Assembly (NCBI GenBank): GCA_030595055.1
Contig: JAUVEB010000005.1
Coordinates: 1-32,298 of the forward strand
From: Desulfuromonadaceae bacterium
Lineage (GTDB): Bacteria > Desulfobacterota > Desulfuromonadia > Desulfuromonadales > Geopsychrobacteraceae
Direction of reading: 5' to 3'
DNA: 32,298 bases
In this document: in pieces, positions 7,401 through 28,215 of the stretch
Numbering within the stretch: position 1 is the stretch's first letter
How the letters are laid out: each line of letters opens with the position of its first letter
Notes under the pieces: model-generated
The model's input: only the letters and a program-made list of their open reading frames with translations
What the model was told of the DNA's origin: nothing
The model's database searches: none
Position numbers and translations under genes: made by a program

Positions 7401-9323
7401 TCATTTCCCGCAACGTTTATAGTATGTCGACCCCCGCAGGCGGGCGGCGAACTGATCAAGGATCTCCCGTCGCTCGGTCAGGTTAATCTTGCCGTCGCGA
7501 ACCGCCTGTTCCGTCTTGGTACGAAAGTCTTCGAACAATGTTTCCGGATGATATTCCACGTAGCTGAGAACTTCAGCAATGCTGTCACCGGAAATTTCCT
7601 TGACCAGGTCAAAGCTGCCGTCCTCGTTGAGCCGGATACTGAGGACGTTGGTGTCGCCGAACAGGTTGTGCAGATCCCCGAGGGTTTCCTGGTAAGCTCC
7701 CATCAGGAAGACGCCGAGAATGTAATCTTCGTTTTCCTTGAGTTGGTGCAGGGGCAGGGTCTGCTGTTCCCCACCGTTGAGGACAAAACAGTCGAGCTTG
7801 CCGTCGCAATCGCAGGTCAAGTCGGAAATAATGCCGTCGCGGATCGGGGCTTCATGCAGTCGGTGGATCGGTAAAACCGGGTAAACCTGGCCGATGGCCC
7901 AAGTGTCGGGCAGCGACTGGAAAACGCTGAAATTGCCGTAATAGATATCTGCCAGACTTTTGCGCAGCTCATTCAGGCCGGGAGCGTCGGGGCTTGCCGC
8001 AGTCAGTTCAGTCGTGACTCGTCGGGCGATACTTAAAAACAGGTTCTCGGCCAACGAGCGTTGCCGCAGGTTGAGTTCTCCCTGACGGAAAAGTTCGCGA
8101 ATCCGGTCACGGTTGGCCAGCGCTTCGTTATAGGTGAGAAAGGGATCCGCTTCTTGTTGTTGCTGATGTAACACGAACTGACGGGCGACTAAGGGCGGTG
8201 CATCCGCCGGGCAGTTTTCAGGCAAGGACAGAGGTTCGAAGCGCAGCACGTCAAGGATGTCGAACAGCAGCATGGTGGTATGGGCCACCGTGGCTCGTCC
8301 CGATTCTGTGATCAGGGTCGGATGTGCAACCTGTTTGCGGTCGAGAGTTGCCGCGACGGTTTCCACCAGGCAGCGACAGTAACCGGCCATGTCGTAATTG
8401 CGTGAATGGCTCTGTTTTGATTGGTTGCCGATGTAGTCGACGGCCAGGCCGCCCCCCAGGTCAAGGTATTGCAGTGGCACACCTTCTTCTGCCAGATCGG
8501 CATAAAAGCGGCCGGCTTCACGAACCCCGGCGCGTATTTCCTCGATATCGGGAATCTGTGAGCCGAGATGGCAGTGGAGCAGTTGCAGGCAGCCGAGCAT
8601 ATCTGCCTGGCGGAGCTGATCAACGACAGCGACCAGTTGTGCCGTGCTCAGGCCGAAACTGCTGCGATCACCGGTGGTTTCGGTCCAGAGTCCACCGACT
8701 TTCACCGAAACCTTGATCCGCACACCGATCAGCGGCTTGATGCCGGTCGCCTTGCTGCGTTCGAGGAGCAGCGGCAGCTCGGTCGGCGACTCGATGACAA
8801 AGAAACAGCGGTAACCCAGCTTGCCGGCCCAGAGGCCGAGATCAATGAATTCACGGTCTTTATAACCATTACAGATCAGCAGCCCGCCTTCATTCAGGTT
8901 GGCCAGGGCGAGCAGCAGTTCGGCTTTACTTCCGGCTTCCAGGCCATGACCATAGGCGGCACCGAAACGACTGATTTCGCGGATGACCTGGCACTGCTGG
9001 TTGACCTTGACCGGAAAAACGCCCTGGTATCGACCCCGGTAACCCGCCTCGGCCATTGCCGTCGCGAAGCTCTCGTTGAGCAGTTGGATTCTTTCATCAA
9101 GCAGGTTTTCCACCCGCAGCAGCAAGGGAAAGTCATAGCCGCGTTGCTTGGCCCCGGTGACGATATCGATGAGCGGGATGGCGACTTCGCCGGACGGGAA
9201 TTGACCCTTGACCCGGACATTGCCGTCAGCGGAAAGGTCAAAATTCCCTTTGCCCCACTGGTGAATGCCGTAAAGCTCGGCGGAATCTTTGCTGCTCCAC
9301 GCGGTTGCTTGAGTTCGCTTCAT
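7401..9323 (-). CDS. speA: Biosynthetic (PLP-dependent) arginine decarboxylase
   Basis: 640 aa with SpeA-type motifs YGIHQWGKGNFDLSADGNVRV, GVFPVKVNQQ, LHCHLGSQI, YLDLGGGLAVDY, LTCDCDGKLD. Confidence 0.95.
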   Translation of the reverse strand: MKRTQATAWSSKDSAELYGIHQWGKGNFDLSADGNVRVKGQFPSGEVAIPLIDIVTGAKQRGYDFPLLLRVENLLDERIQLLNESFATAMAEAGYRGRYQGVFPVKVNQQCQVIREISRFGAAYGHGLEAGSKAELLLALANLNEGGLLICNGYKDREFIDLGLWAGKLGYRCFFVIESPTELPLLLERSKATGIKPLIGVRIKVSVKVGGLWTETTGDRSSFGLSTAQLVAVVDQLRQADMLGCLQLLHCHLGSQIPDIEEIRAGVREAGRFYADLAEEGVPLQYLDLGGGLAVDYIGNQSKQSHSRNYDMAGYCRCLVETVAATLDRKQVAHPTLITESGRATVAHTTMLLFDILDVLRFEPLSLPENCPADAPPLVARQFVLHQQQQEADPFLTYNEALANRDRIRELFRQGELNLRQRSLAENLFLSIARRVTTELTAASPDAPGLNELRKSLADIYYGNFSVFQSLPDTWAIGQVYPVLPIHRLHEAPIRDGIISDLTCDCDGKLDCFVLNGGEQQTLPLHQLKENEDYILGVFLMGAYQETLGDLHNLFGDTNVLSIRLNEDGSFDLVKEISGDSIAEVLSYVEYHPETLFEDFRTKTEQAVRDGKINLTERREILDQFAARLRGSTYYKRCGK

Positions 9324-18275: not shown

Positions 18276-19679
18276 ATGTATTCAATGCAAAAAACATTCA
18301 AGCATCTCATGCAACTCGGTCTGTTGTTGATTCTGGCTGGCGGTGTTGTTTCATCGGCTTTTGCCGGGAGCCACAAAAAACGGGTTCAGGGGCCGATTAG
18401 CGAGCCTCAGGATGTCACTCGCCAGTGTCTCAAGTGTCACAAAGGTGTGGCGGGGGATTTCATGAAAACCTCGCACTGGAACTGGGGCTTGGAGCAGGAA
18501 GTTGACGGTAAGATGGTCGACCGTGGTAAGAAGAATTCTCTGAACAACTACTGCACTTCAATCGCCGGAAATGAACAGTTCTGCGCCAAATGTCATGCCG
18601 GTTACGGATTGACCGATGCCGGGACCTATGATTTCGGTAACGCTGAAAACATTGACTGCCTCGTCTGCCACGATACCACAGGGACTTATAACAAGGGCTC
18701 GAACGTGGCCGGTTACCCGTTGGAAAAGGTTAACCTGCTGCGGGTTGCGCAGAACGTCGGTTCGCCGAACCGTGACAACTGTGGACAATGTCATTTTTAC
18801 GGCGGCGGGGCCGATGCTGTCAAGCACGGCGATCTTGATTCTTCTATGTCTTATCCTGACAGAAAGACTGACATCCATATGGATGTCGATGGTAACGATT
18901 TCCAATGTATCGAGTGTCACAAAACGGAAGATCATCTGATTACCGGTCATTCTCTTGGTGTTTCCCCGGATGGGCATACCGAGGTCAACTGTGAACAGTG
19001 TCACGATGGTGAGGTTCACGAAGAAAGCCGTCTCAATGCCCACCTGGATACCGTTGCTTGCCAGACTTGCCATATCCCGGTTTATGCCAAGAACCTCGCA
19101 ACAAAAATCTGGTGGGATTGGTCAAACGCCGGTGAAGAGCGCCCGTTTGATAAAAAAAATAAGCATGGTTATCACACCTATGTAAAGAAAAAGGGTGAGA
19201 TGAAGTACGGCATGAATCTGGCCCCTGAATATCGCTGGTTTAACGGCAAAGGTGGTACCTATTTTCGTGGTGACAAGATCGATCCGAAAAAAGTGACCAG
19301 TCTGGCCTACCCGATCGGTGACATTGCTGATGCCGAGGCAAAGATTTATCCCTTCAAGGTGATGCGTGGTAAACAGATTTACGATACCGTGAACATGACC
19401 CTGATCACCGCCAAACTTGCGAACGAAGGCGGGTACTGGGTTGATTATGATTGGGACAAGGCGGCCCGTCTCGGTAGCGAAGCCAGTGGCTTGCCTTACA
19501 GCGGCAAGTATGGTTTCGCCGAAACTGATATGTACTGGCGGGTGAATCACATGGTCTCGCCGAAAGAGCAGGCCCTCGGTTGTCTCGACTGCCACGGTGA
19601 CAACGGCCGTATGGATTGGGTCGGGCTTGGCTATAAAGGTGATCCGATGAGTTGTCCTGAATGGGCACGCGAAAAGTAG
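18276..19679 (+). CDS. Octaheme c-type cytochrome, tetrathionate reductase (OTR)-like family
   Basis: Signal peptide and eight CxxCH motifs (CLKCH, CAKCH, CLVCH, CGQCH, CIECH, CEQCH, CQTCH, CLDCH) in an OTR-like arrangement. Confidence 0.88.
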   Translation: MYSMQKTFKHLMQLGLLLILAGGVVSSAFAGSHKKRVQGPISEPQDVTRQCLKCHKGVAGDFMKTSHWNWGLEQEVDGKMVDRGKKNSLNNYCTSIAGNEQFCAKCHAGYGLTDAGTYDFGNAENIDCLVCHDTTGTYNKGSNVAGYPLEKVNLLRVAQNVGSPNRDNCGQCHFYGGGADAVKHGDLDSSMSYPDRKTDIHMDVDGNDFQCIECHKTEDHLITGHSLGVSPDGHTEVNCEQCHDGEVHEESRLNAHLDTVACQTCHIPVYAKNLATKIWWDWSNAGEERPFDKKNKHGYHTYVKKKGEMKYGMNLAPEYRWFNGKGGTYFRGDKIDPKKVTSLAYPIGDIADAEAKIYPFKVMRGKQIYDTVNMTLITAKLANEGGYWVDYDWDKAARLGSEASGLPYSGKYGFAETDMYWRVNHMVSPKEQALGCLDCHGDNGRMDWVGLGYKGDPMSCPEWAREK

Positions 19680-23560: not shown

Positions 23561-23601
23561 GAAACTACCAAACTGAGGAATGCCAGAGGTGTGTGGGTAA
23601 G

Positions 23602-23632
23602 AAAAAGCCCGGCTGTTTCCAGCCGGGCAAAA
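23602..23632 (-). terminator. Rho-independent terminator of the decaheme/barrel operon
   Basis: gcccggctg-tttc-cagccgggc stem, with a T-run on the minus strand after the stem. Confidence 0.85.
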
Positions 23633-23660: not shown

Positions 23661-25931
23661 TCAGAACCGCCAGCCGATACCGGCGTAGCCATAATAGGCC
23701 GTTCCGTCTTCATCGCCGGAAACAAATTCTTCTTTTGCATCAAAGATGTCATAAGTGAAAGAAGCATTTCCATAGAATGTTTCGGTGAAGTTGTAGGTGC
23801 CACCGACAGTCATCTGATACTGCTCGTAAGAGAGATCAGAGTACTCGTCCATCAGGTTGTTTAGTTCCCAGGTATCATAGTTGTAATCACCACCACCCAT
23901 GATGAGAGAGTCACGCTCAGCAAAATCCCAGTCCAAAGTATCTTCGGCCTTATTATAGGTAAAGCCGGCATTAATTTGCAGTTTCTCGGTTGCTTGATAA
24001 TCAGTAGTCAGAGATAGCGTGTGGACTTCACTTTCGTACTCGGCAATATCACAGTACGATCCAAACTGGATCGATGCAACATTGTTCGCTCAGCCATGGT
24101 ACCAGCCGACACACATCCGATTTTCTGTGTCCTGCTTATTGAATGTGTAGGCCATGGTTAGATTTACCTTACTATTCGGTGCGTAGTAGAGGGAAACCCC
24201 GGGGACATAAGTGTTTTGTTGATACTTAACTGCATCATTTTCTTCCGTCCGCACTCGGGCAAATACTGTTGCTGCCATATTGGCCGAAGGTGTCCAGGTT
24301 GCAGAAAATTTGGCCTCATGGACACTTTCTGGGTCAACAGACGTTTCCAGCTTCCGGTTCGGATACACACTGTTCCAATAGAAAACAGCAGTTGTATTGC
24401 CTGGATCCCCAGCGTAATTAGCAGTGAGATCAGAGGCAAAGCCGGGATAAATGGCACTCATAAATTCTGCTGATTGTAAAATCCCTGTGTTTGCTCCACG
24501 AAGCGGCTCATCAATGTCTTGATATTGATAGCTGACCCGTCCTGAGAGTTGCTTATTCAAGCGCGATTTGACAGCCACTTTAAAGGTGTGGGTTTCAGTT
24601 TCACCCAACTCTGCTTCTTCCCGATCAATGTCTTCGTACTCATAGCCGAGACGCAGAGTTGTTCCCTTTGCCAACCGATAAACACCATCAATGCCGAATT
24701 CCGTTACATCACGAGTTTCAGCTGATTCATAATGCGCTGGGTTATCAAAGGTGTGATTGTGATTGGCAGCATCGTCCCTGTCAGGGAAAGTAACATAATA
24801 GTCCGGACCATCAATTTCATAGGTTCCACCACGGACAGACATACGTAAATCGCCAATACGGGTTGCGCCCTTGAGGAAAAATGATTCGAATTCGCTGGTT
24901 AACGCGTTGGTGTCCAGGGAGTAGGTACCTGCTTCACCAGCTTTGTCCGACTTGACTTCGGCATTGACATAAGTAGCTGAAAGTGATGAGTCACGGTTGA
25001 AATCAAGCCTGGTTTTCAGCATATGGCTGTCTTTTTTTGAATCCGGGGTCACTTTATAGGCCTGTGAACCTGAATACAACAACTGGTCGGCATCAGGTAT
25101 GCCGCCATGTGTACCAGGAGAGCTCAGGTAGTTATAAGTTGGATCCTGTCCGTCTTCAGTGAATTCGCGGGTCAGGTACTCATATTCAATTGTGGCCATG
25201 CCAAATTTTCCTGTGGCACCAAATGTCCAGTCCTCGGTCCGCTCATCTATCTCTTTGCCATTGGCTTGTACATGACATTGGTTACATTTACTTGACGTGA
25301 TGGCTTGCTCAAGCCCTTCGCGGGTTTCGATCCGCATCCCGGTATGGAAAGTGATGTTCGGTAGCTCGGGAATGGTCAGACTTGCTTCAGCCTTAGTTTC
25401 CCGACGGGTGACAATGTAATTATTGTCCATCTCTTGATAGTAACGCTCAAGGGCTCCAGCTTCAGGTACGGCAGGCGCACCAGCTAGTTGTCCAACCGTG
25501 GCATCTGTAGTGACTCGAGGCTGATTGCCGTTAACATCATTGCGGGCAGTGGCCCCGACGTGCTCCAGGGTGTCATGATCTTTCCAGTGTTCCAGAACCT
25601 GGTGATCAAAGCCGAATTTGAAGATTCTTTTGTAATCAAAACCCAGGCTGAATTCCTGATCACGTGGTCCCATGATGTCAGCCTCGAAATCAAAGGCTGA
25701 ACCATTATCCACAAATTCCAGAGACAGGCTCGGTGCAAAACTGAAGCCTTCCTCTGCTCTGGTGTTGACATATTCGTTGACGCGTGCAGGGCTGTCATCC
25801 GTCTCCATGCCCGAAATGCCGATTTCCACATGACCGCTCGCTTTTCCTTCTTCAGCGATTGCCAGGGTGGTGGTCGTCATTAAGGTCAGGATAGACAGCA
25901 ATGCAAGCAGCCATAAATGGCGTTGCTTCAT
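23661..25931 (-). CDS. MtrB/PioB-like outer-membrane beta-barrel protein; frame interrupted once by in-frame TGA (24090-24092), candidate selenocysteine codon
   Basis: ORFs 24090..25931 (613 aa) and 23661..23936 are in the same frame; manual translation of the intervening codons finds no other stop. Signal peptide MKQRHLWLLALLSILTLMTTTTLAIA, alternating beta-strand pattern, C-terminal ...YYGYAGIGWRF typical of OM barrels; downstream of a decaheme cytochrome gene. Confidence 0.78.
24044..24084 (-). promoter_or_regulatory. Candidate bacterial SECIS-like stem-loop immediately 3' of in-frame UGA
   Basis: mRNA sense: UGA-GCGAA-[CAAUGUUGCA]-U-[CGAUCC]-AGUUU-[GGAUCG]-UAC-[UGUGAUAUUG]. Apical stem 6 bp (7 with A-U), lower stem 10 bp including G-U pairs, 22 nt from UGA to apical loop, G at loop position 2 (or 1). 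Confidence 0.55.
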
Positions 25932-25947: not shown

Positions 25948-26925
25948 TTAACGGGTCAGGCCGCCACCGCCGAGCGGTTGAGACGGGAAGTCGCTGCCGT
26001 GAACAACCTGGTGGCAGGTTGTACATTTGGTGCCGAAGGATTTTTGAAAACCCTCAGCGCCGTGCGGATTCGCTGCAATTGTTGCGGCGTCAGAGGCACC
26101 ATCAGGCTCTCTTCCTAAGCGCAGCAGATGGAAATGTCCTTCATGGCACTGCAGGCAGAGGAACGGCTCATTTTGTACCAGCAGGTTGCCGGCAACGGAC
26201 CCATGCGGATCGTGGCAGATCGTGCAATCATCCTCAACCGGGGCGTGACCGAAGACAAACGGACCCTGGTAGCGGGTGTGGCAGTCGAGGCACAGATCGT
26301 TGGTGCGCTCGTGGGTGTTCAACTCACCGTGCGGGTTGTGGCAATCGCCGCAGCTCATCTTGCCTTCTTTGATTGGATGATGAGACGGGAAATTGGTTTT
26401 TGCCATCATCTCCTGGTGACAGGAGTAGCACAGCTCGGGATCTTCTTGTTTCAGGTTGGCTTTAAGAGGCTTTTCAGCGTGTATGCTGTGACAGTCGGTA
26501 CAGCTGAGGTCTGCCAAGGCGTGTTCACTGTGGGTCCAGTCCATCAGGTTGCCGTCGGTATGACAGGTGGCGCAGATGGCGCCGGTTTCTTCGGCGTTCA
26601 ATTCTGCCGGGCGGAGAATTTTCTCGGTGTCTCCATCGCTGTCAATGTGCAGACTGCCGGGACCGTGGCAGGATTCGCAGCCTTTTTCTGCACCCATCAT
26701 TTCGAAATCAGCCAGACGCCCGTGAACGTTGTGGCTGAAACTTTCTGCCATATCTTCATGGCAGTCCAGGCAGCTGTCCTGCCCGACGTAGGTGGCACCA
26801 TCAATGGCAGGCAAGGTGAGCATTTTTTCTCTGATCGCTCCCGTGGCGCAAGCGCCCAGGATCAGAACCAGGAAAAACAGCCCCACCAGTCTGCCGGTTT
26901 TGGTACCGGAAAACTTGGATGACAT
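25948..26925 (-). CDS. DmsE/MtrA-like decaheme c-type cytochrome lipoprotein
   Basis: Ten CxxCH motifs (CLDCH, CESCH, CATCH, CTDCH, CYSCH, CGDCH, CLDCH, CTICH, CLQCH, CTTCH) and a lipobox-like LILGACATG. Confidence 0.92.
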   Translation of the reverse strand: MSSKFSGTKTGRLVGLFFLVLILGACATGAIREKMLTLPAIDGATYVGQDSCLDCHEDMAESFSHNVHGRLADFEMMGAEKGCESCHGPGSLHIDSDGDTEKILRPAELNAEETGAICATCHTDGNLMDWTHSEHALADLSCTDCHSIHAEKPLKANLKQEDPELCYSCHQEMMAKTNFPSHHPIKEGKMSCGDCHNPHGELNTHERTNDLCLDCHTRYQGPFVFGHAPVEDDCTICHDPHGSVAGNLLVQNEPFLCLQCHEGHFHLLRLGREPDGASDAATIAANPHGAEGFQKSFGTKCTTCHQVVHGSDFPSQPLGGGGLTR

Positions 26926-27303
26926 GTTACCTCCTTTTGTGAATACAAGCTTGGGGGATTTTCCGCTTCATTTTTCAGTACTTAAACTTTCTGACAGAAG
27001 CTGACCCGAATATATAAACCTCCTTTTCCGTTAGGTCACTAAGCGATTATAGTAAGCTATTAAAAATGGGTGCTGATAGTTTGCTGCCGCCCATTCCAAG
27101 GGTCGCCGATTGAATGAATGCATGGCCACCCTTTCCATGGGCATCACCAGCACATCTTACTGAACAGTTACCGATTATATTTGACTAATGGTAAGAATTC
27201 ACAGAATATAATGACACATTTTTTGCAGCAGGACAAAACGAATCCTTTTTATATATATATTAAACTTGTTAATAGTGTTGATTCGTAATATTTGGATAAT
27301 TGT

Positions 27304-28215
27304 ATGGATACGCGATATTTGAAAACCTTGGTGACCGCTGTCGAGGCTGGTAGTTTTTCCAAGGCAGCGACAATCCTTCACCTGACCCAGTCGGCAGTTT
27401 CTCAGCGAATCAAATTTCTGGAAGATCGCTTCGGACAGAAACTCATGTGTCGTTTCGGTTCCAAGTTGAGTTTAACACAAGCCGGGGAACTTGTTCTGGA
27501 GATGGCAAACAGGGTTCTCGCTTTGCAGGATGCTCTGGTTCGTGATCTACAACGATTGACCGACAAACAGCAGCTCTCTCTTTGTTGTACGCCGACGTTC
27601 GGGACAGTTTTTCTGCCTGACGTGCTGAATACCTTTATGCTGGAAAACAGTAGTTCTGTTGATCTCAAGTTTCTGTTTCTCAGCCCCGATCAGGCTTTGG
27701 AGGGGGTTCGTAACCAGGAGTTTGACCTGGTGGTGATCGAGCATTGTCGGGAAAGAGATCTGAGTGGTTTTCAAACCTACCCTCTGCCGGAGGATGAGCT
27801 GGTTTTCGTCAGTGCCCCCGAGTTAGCTTTGTCAGCCCCTGATATTGATTTAGACGAGCTTTTAAAGATGCGGCTATTCGCCCGAAAAGATGGCTGCAGT
27901 TCCAAAAAGTTGCTTATGACAGGCCTTTCAAAGGCGGGTCGACAGTTGGAGGAGTTCACCGGAGTGATGGTTTCCGATGATCTGCATTTGACTTGCCAGA
28001 CAGTGCTGGCCGGTGGCGGTGTGTCTTTTATGTCGAAGAGCCTGGTCCAGAAATACCTGGACAGTGGCCAGATGGTGGCACATTATCTCAAAGGATTTAA
28101 CTCCCGGCGGTGCCGTACGGTCATTTTCAACAAAGGTCGTGACGAAGAGGAGATTTTCCGAAATTTTGTCAATGTTGTTTTTCGGGTGATGGGGGAGTCT
28201 CAACCTTTTAGCTGA
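27304..28215 (+). CDS. LysR-family transcriptional regulator
   Basis: MDTRYLKTLVTAVEAGSFSKAATILHLTQSAVSQRIKFLEDRFGQKLMCRF (HTH) plus substrate-binding domain; divergent from the decaheme operon; ATG at 27304 preferred over TTG 27292. Confidence 0.92.
   Translation: MDTRYLKTLVTAVEAGSFSKAATILHLTQSAVSQRIKFLEDRFGQKLMCRFGSKLSLTQAGELVLEMANRVLALQDALVRDLQRLTDKQQLSLCCTPTFGTVFLPDVLNTFMLENSSSVDLKFLFLSPDQALEGVRNQEFDLVVIEHCRERDLSGFQTYPLPEDELVFVSAPELALSAPDIDLDELLKMRLFARKDGCSSKKLLMTGLSKAGRQLEEFTGVMVSDDLHLTCQTVLAGGGVSFMSKSLVQKYLDSGQMVAHYLKGFNSRRCRTVIFNKGRDEEEIFRNFVNVVFRVMGESQPFS

Follow-up and report, generated by a model that had tools for sequence, protein, structure and literature searches.

Organization of the Locus

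The window, a stretch of 32,298 nucleotides from a Desulfuromonadaceae bacterium (assembly GCA_030595055.1, contig JAUVEB010000005.1), carries a gene for an MtrB/PioB-like outer-membrane β-barrel protein of the GSU2204 family (Table 1). Its reading frame is interrupted by a single internal UGA at codon 614, and a second, genuine UGA ends the gene. The 756-residue product has a signal-like segment at its start and ...GIGWRF at its end. It matches the NCBIfam model NF041027 (“GSU2204 family CXXCH-containing (seleno)protein”) with 630 bits (E = 4.5e-189; curated cut-off 350 bits), and this match stops at residue 613, directly before Sec614. PF11854 (MtrB_PioB) is matched with 57.3 bits against a gathering score of 23 bits, while a score of 43.5 bits against the curated 240 leaves the protein related to the TIGR03509 subfamily but outside it.

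The best Foldseek match is MtrB (6r2q_B; E = 6e-24, TM 0.77 by target length), which is also reached by sequence profile, and 26 barrel strands were counted in an AlphaFold2 model with a mean pLDDT of 73.8. When strands are numbered backwards from the C-terminus, which is periplasmic, the loop containing Sec (611-622) and the CXXCH motif (216-220) are predicted to lie in hairpins of the outer face some 14 strands from each other, the confidence of both loops being below 50. Along with the cysteine at 607, Cys627 is invariant in the alignment.

Table 1. Positions in the window of the barrel gene, its predicted recoding signals and neighboring genes.
Feature	Position	Strand	Basis or remark
Predicted selenoprotein gene, 756-residue MtrB/PioB-like outer-membrane barrel, GSU2204 family	23661..25931	-	NF041027, PF11854, Foldseek
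In-frame UGA, read as Sec614	24090..24092	-	TGA in 54/54 distinct relatives; frame runs on to barrel C-terminus ending Phe
Conserved apical hairpin, predicted SECIS	24057..24073	-	7 bp + GUU loop, or 6 bp + AGUUU loop; 22-23 nt after UGA
Lower stem, 5' side	24075..24084	-	Present here (fold), not conserved
Lower stem, 3' side	24044..24053	-	Present here (fold), not conserved; contains Cys627 codon (24051-24053)
Cys607 codon	24111..24113	-	Invariant in alignment
CXXCH, residues 216-220, putative c-type haem site in barrel	25272..25286	-	C216, C219, H220 invariant
Likely intrinsic terminator	23601..23628	-	GC-rich inverted repeat + T-run after true stop, read directly
Decahaem c-type cytochrome, GSU2203/OmcK type, DmsE/MtrA family	25948..26925	-	NF041028 E=1.5e-144; TIGR03508 E=5e-73, above cut-off
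Divergent LysR regulator, multihaem-cytochrome-associated type	27292..28215	+	NF041036 E=6e-130

Immediately upstream of the barrel gene, and in the same orientation, lies a gene for a decahaem cytochrome, which occupies this upstream position in 35 of 41 named relatives; the LysR regulator is present in 30 of the 41. The barrel and the decahaem cytochrome are likely to act together as a two-part conduit that carries electrons across the outer membrane, and in which the barrel would bring its own haem motif and Sec. Among the neighbors scanned, none was identified as MtrC-like, and ExtKL is absent from this genome's incomplete assembly. An octahaem c-type cytochrome, assigned to the tetrathionate reductase family (TIGR04315; 18276-19679, plus strand), is encoded a few kb away from this operon. 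Just downstream of the barrel gene is a gene resembling the YedF selenium-metabolism sulfurtransferase (TIGR03527; 22845-23432, minus strand), and YedF is found near the equivalent gene in 7 of the 41 named relatives.

Conservation of the Internal UGA

We searched relatives, the 279 genomes of the class and a named collection of 85,488 genomes, and obtained 54 distinct sequences that cover the site. The codon is TGA in every one of them, within the context C-x-G-[WFL]-Y-x-G-U-[AG], and it is usually the sole in-frame internal stop. All 41 named loci likewise have TGA, though one of the two search patterns left this position free. Copies bearing the UGA come mainly from Desulfuromonadales, Desulfuromusa, Desulfuromonas and Geobacteraceae records, among them Desulfuromusa kysingii (L033), and a scan of viral_contigs found no relative. 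One copy (L016/L123, genome G050) has an in-frame TAG besides the UGA.

One alternative is that this UGA simply ends the protein, or arose by point mutation or assembly error in a decaying gene, and that the hairpin beyond it is incidental. Decay does occur in the family: one relative (G028, L018/L027) has a truly decayed copy with numerous stops and frameshifts, in which an inserted triplet disrupts the UGA. However, the same UGA is found in all 54 other distinct copies, which span many genera and in which it is nearly always the only internal stop. Moreover, the 142 codons past it are as conserved as those before it (protein identity is 50-78% on both sides in the nearer relatives) and encode a typical barrel C-terminus. 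The invariant codon and the conserved protein sequence downstream together refute this explanation, to which we give very little credence.

A distant barrel paralogue from two genera of the same order (L115-L120) also has a CXXCH motif, and places a cysteine, aligned without gaps, at the position of Sec. This Cys paralogue lacks the CAGU hairpin and has neither Cys607 nor Cys627.

Fold and Stability of the Hairpin

The sequence-only reading had proposed a SECIS-like stem-loop at 24044-24092, and both site and sequence proved exact, on the minus strand. RNAfold of these 49 nt returned the apical stem as described there, either 6 bp with a 5-nt loop or 7 bp closing on GUU (CGAUCCA-GUU-UGGAUCG, 24073-24057, minus strand). 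The proposed distance of 22 nt between the UGA and the loop applies to the AGUUU loop, and is 23 nt when measured to GUU. The fold reaches -17.4 kcal/mol, compared with -8.7 ± 2.3 in dinucleotide shuffles, a control that the earlier reading had itself suggested; the native sequence is more stable (z = -3.8), and a single shuffle in 200 equals it. Across the gene, 18 of 2223 windows of 49 nt match or exceed this stability, and several of the 18 overlap the same hairpin. In a further control, where the encoded protein was held fixed and codons were drawn from the gene's own usage, none of 1000 synonymous recodings folds as well as this copy.

Published bSECIS criteria (PMC13188914) place the loop 16-37 nt after an in-frame UGA and specify an upper stem of 4-16 bp, a loop of 3-9 nt with G in position 1 or 2, and an MFE of ≤ -7.5 kcal/mol. 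The hairpin falls within all of these sequence and energy limits, as had been anticipated for its spacing and loop G, with the apical part alone (-7.8 kcal/mol) barely under the energy cut-off. In neighboring genes, a hairpin that passes follows about 4% of ordinary codons (170/4189); shape alone therefore proves little, and it is conservation that carries the case. Scanning Rfam at gathering and at permissive thresholds gave no SECIS or other relevant match.

Evolution of the Hairpin

When 47 sequences (46 distinct) are aligned without gaps, 97.8% of the cells of the apical helix are paired, and RNAalifold finds no structure but this helix. The structural conservation expected of relatives that keep the UGA thus holds for the apical helix, with compensatory changes. 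The lower stem fared differently. The ten consecutive pairs, three of them G-U, that had been claimed for it do form in the RNAfold structure of this sequence, but its columns are paired in only 63.7% of cells against 61.8% in column shuffles. It was therefore rejected as part of the conserved element, and is lineage-specific.

The strongest signal comes from pair 23-33, in which the second base of codon 621, a variable codon, pairs with the wobble base of Gly624. The glycine codon is GGA after AUC or GUC, GGC (or GGU) after AGC or GGC, and GGG after ACC, GCC or UCC. On a tree built from the flanking protein sequence of 53 sequences, the pair changes 13 times, 12 of these being double changes, and pairing is never broken. 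It is paired in 53/53, whereas 2000 simulations with an independently evolving wobble base reach at most 41. The hairpin is also kept in two lineages with a 7-residue insertion after Gln (L039, L049) and in four sequences with a 1-residue deletion (L057, L065, L068, L069), where it is built from different pairs with GU at or beside the start of the loop.

Could the hairpin simply result from conservation of the protein segment Ser/Thr-Gln-Phe-Gly-Ser, with no signal in the RNA itself? The codons CAG-UUU-GGN do specify the conserved QFG, part of the conservation of CAGUUUGG is due to this encoded Gln-Phe-Gly, and the background of passing hairpins noted above would also suit such an origin. Against this stands the synonymous control: beyond the 0/1000 for this copy, the mean z across 53 relatives is -2.1, with 38 of them below -1.645. 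The silent choice of wobble base at Gly624 follows the middle base of codon 621 without exception, and the hairpin persists where the insertion replaces FGS. A mere by-product thus seems most improbable. The strict bSECIS model as coded (perfect stem, ≤ -7.5 kcal/mol) is passed by 45 of 54 relatives and missed by nine, and five relatives (L057, L065, L068, L069 and L103) show no excess stability over synonymous recodings. The weaker hairpins of the deletion lineage and of L103 limit the case.

Selenocysteine Machinery and Other UGA Codons

The same genome has selA, selB and selD in a row on one contig (C210) and tRNA-Sec on another (C31), and its SelD itself contains a UGA (SRSSG-U-AAK). SelB scores above the cut-off in 237 of the 279 genomes of the class, so nothing can be learned from how often it and the barrel gene occur together there.

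A downstream hairpin can in principle stimulate readthrough of a stop codon. The UGA might accordingly be read by a near-cognate or suppressor tRNA, or under a code in which UGA is Trp or Cys, with the hairpin serving as a generic pausing element. Yet the same gene terminates at a genuine UGA that is followed by a terminator-like repeat, the genome encodes SelA, SelB, SelD and tRNA-Sec, and the paralogue has Cys rather than Trp at the site. Of the alternatives weighed here, decoding by such a route is the one we find hardest to credit.

When the family covariance model was run against this genome, the only significant match was the hairpin of the barrel gene. A sub-threshold match on another contig (C141, E = 2.8) falls in a rhodanese-domain gene that has a UGA (L138, G000:C141). 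This UGA, at about position 1501 of the locus on the plus strand, stands in FYCLGRK-U-TATV, an active-site-like position, and the hairpin after it has the same CCAGUUUGG apical loop as that of the barrel gene. The rhodanese gene is likely to be a second selenoprotein gene of this genome, and its CCAGUUUGG loop hints, as an independent pointer, at the loop that the local SelB may recognize. The decayed G028 copy of the barrel gene still scores 63 bits with the SECIS model.

Two further UGA codons of the window also have open frame on either side; they were considered and rejected, neither showing any sign of recoding. The frame of the one at 9322 on the minus strand overlaps the point where the spermidine synthase and arginine decarboxylase genes meet, and that of the other, at 19124 on the minus strand, is antisense to the octahaem cytochrome gene.

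A Selenocysteine-Dependent Electron Conduit?

The invariant UGA, the frame that continues beyond it, the conservation of the hairpin at the level of RNA and the complete selenocysteine machinery lead us to read the stem-loop as a bacterial SECIS, whose apical hairpin would be bound by SelB so that Sec is inserted at the UGA of the MtrB-like barrel protein. From the sequence evidence, we put the probability of this reading at roughly 95%. SelB with Sec-tRNA(Sec) would bind the apical hairpin of the mRNA, with its stem closed by CCA/UGG and its GUU loop, and would deliver selenocysteine at the UGA 22 nt upstream of the loop. Translation would then run on through 142 more codons and complete the 26-strand barrel. 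To judge from the operon and the fold, Sec would sit at the outer mouth of an MtrA/MtrB-type conduit and serve either redox chemistry or ligand binding.

A more specific proposal is that Sec, Cys607, Cys627 and the haem of the barrel CXXCH form an exit site, redox-active or metal-binding, at the outer face of the conduit, in place of an MtrC-like outer cytochrome, and that extracellular electron transfer in these bacteria is thus selenium-dependent. We regard this as speculative and rather unlikely. More generally, the Sec codon is invariable in the conduit copies examined and the C-terminal strands lie beyond the UGA, so selenium supply might limit this route of electron export. For annotation, gene calls terminated at the UGA would be short of the final 143 residues, the closing strands of the barrel included.

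The family itself is not new as a selenoprotein, since it is already catalogued in NF041027 and in two reviews, where it appears as “MtrB/PioB family outer membrane beta-barrel protein” (PMC9312934, 2022; PMC13188914, 2026). It is thinly documented, and no published covariation analysis of the GSU2204-family SECIS was found in the literature examined. The present analysis adds evolutionary evidence at the RNA level and the exact apical consensus. Less explored is the place of this selenoprotein family in an MtrA/MtrB-type conduit operon of the OmcK/GSU2203 type, with both Sec and CXXCH predicted on the outer face. The OmcK/OmcL class of conduit is discussed for extracellular electron transfer, and every copy from Desulfuromonadia that we examined carries the Sec codon. 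On iron oxides both GSU2203 and GSU2204 are induced (PMC4070692), and for methane-oxidizing consortia homologues of OmcK/OmcL have been put forward as conduits (PMC10553843); the word selenoprotein does not occur in the latter paper.

Comparison with Known Systems

The hairpin differs in nothing essential from the bSECIS consensus (PMC13188914, Fig. 2). It shares the 22-nt spacing, an upper stem of 6-7 bp, a loop of 3-5 nt, G in loop position 1 or 2, an energy below -7.5 kcal/mol, and a flanking A-U able to pair in the pattern N1-G-U-N-N2. The family apical consensus is NCC-A-GUU-U-GGN, and the lower stem of this copy lies outside the conserved element. With the NF041027 family the protein shares the Sec position, the CXXCH motif and the decahaem partner gene, and is matched up to the residue before Sec; the model ends at 613, which leaves the SECIS and the 142-residue C-terminal part outside it. 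MtrB of the Shewanella Mtr complex (6r2q chain B) is the best fold match, likewise with 26 strands and a decahaem partner of the DmsE/MtrA family, but identity is only 14% and the barrel described here has its own CXXCH and a predicted Sec. As in the OmcK/OmcL porin-cytochrome conduit (PMC10553843), the barrel gene is paired with a cytochrome of the GSU2203 family.
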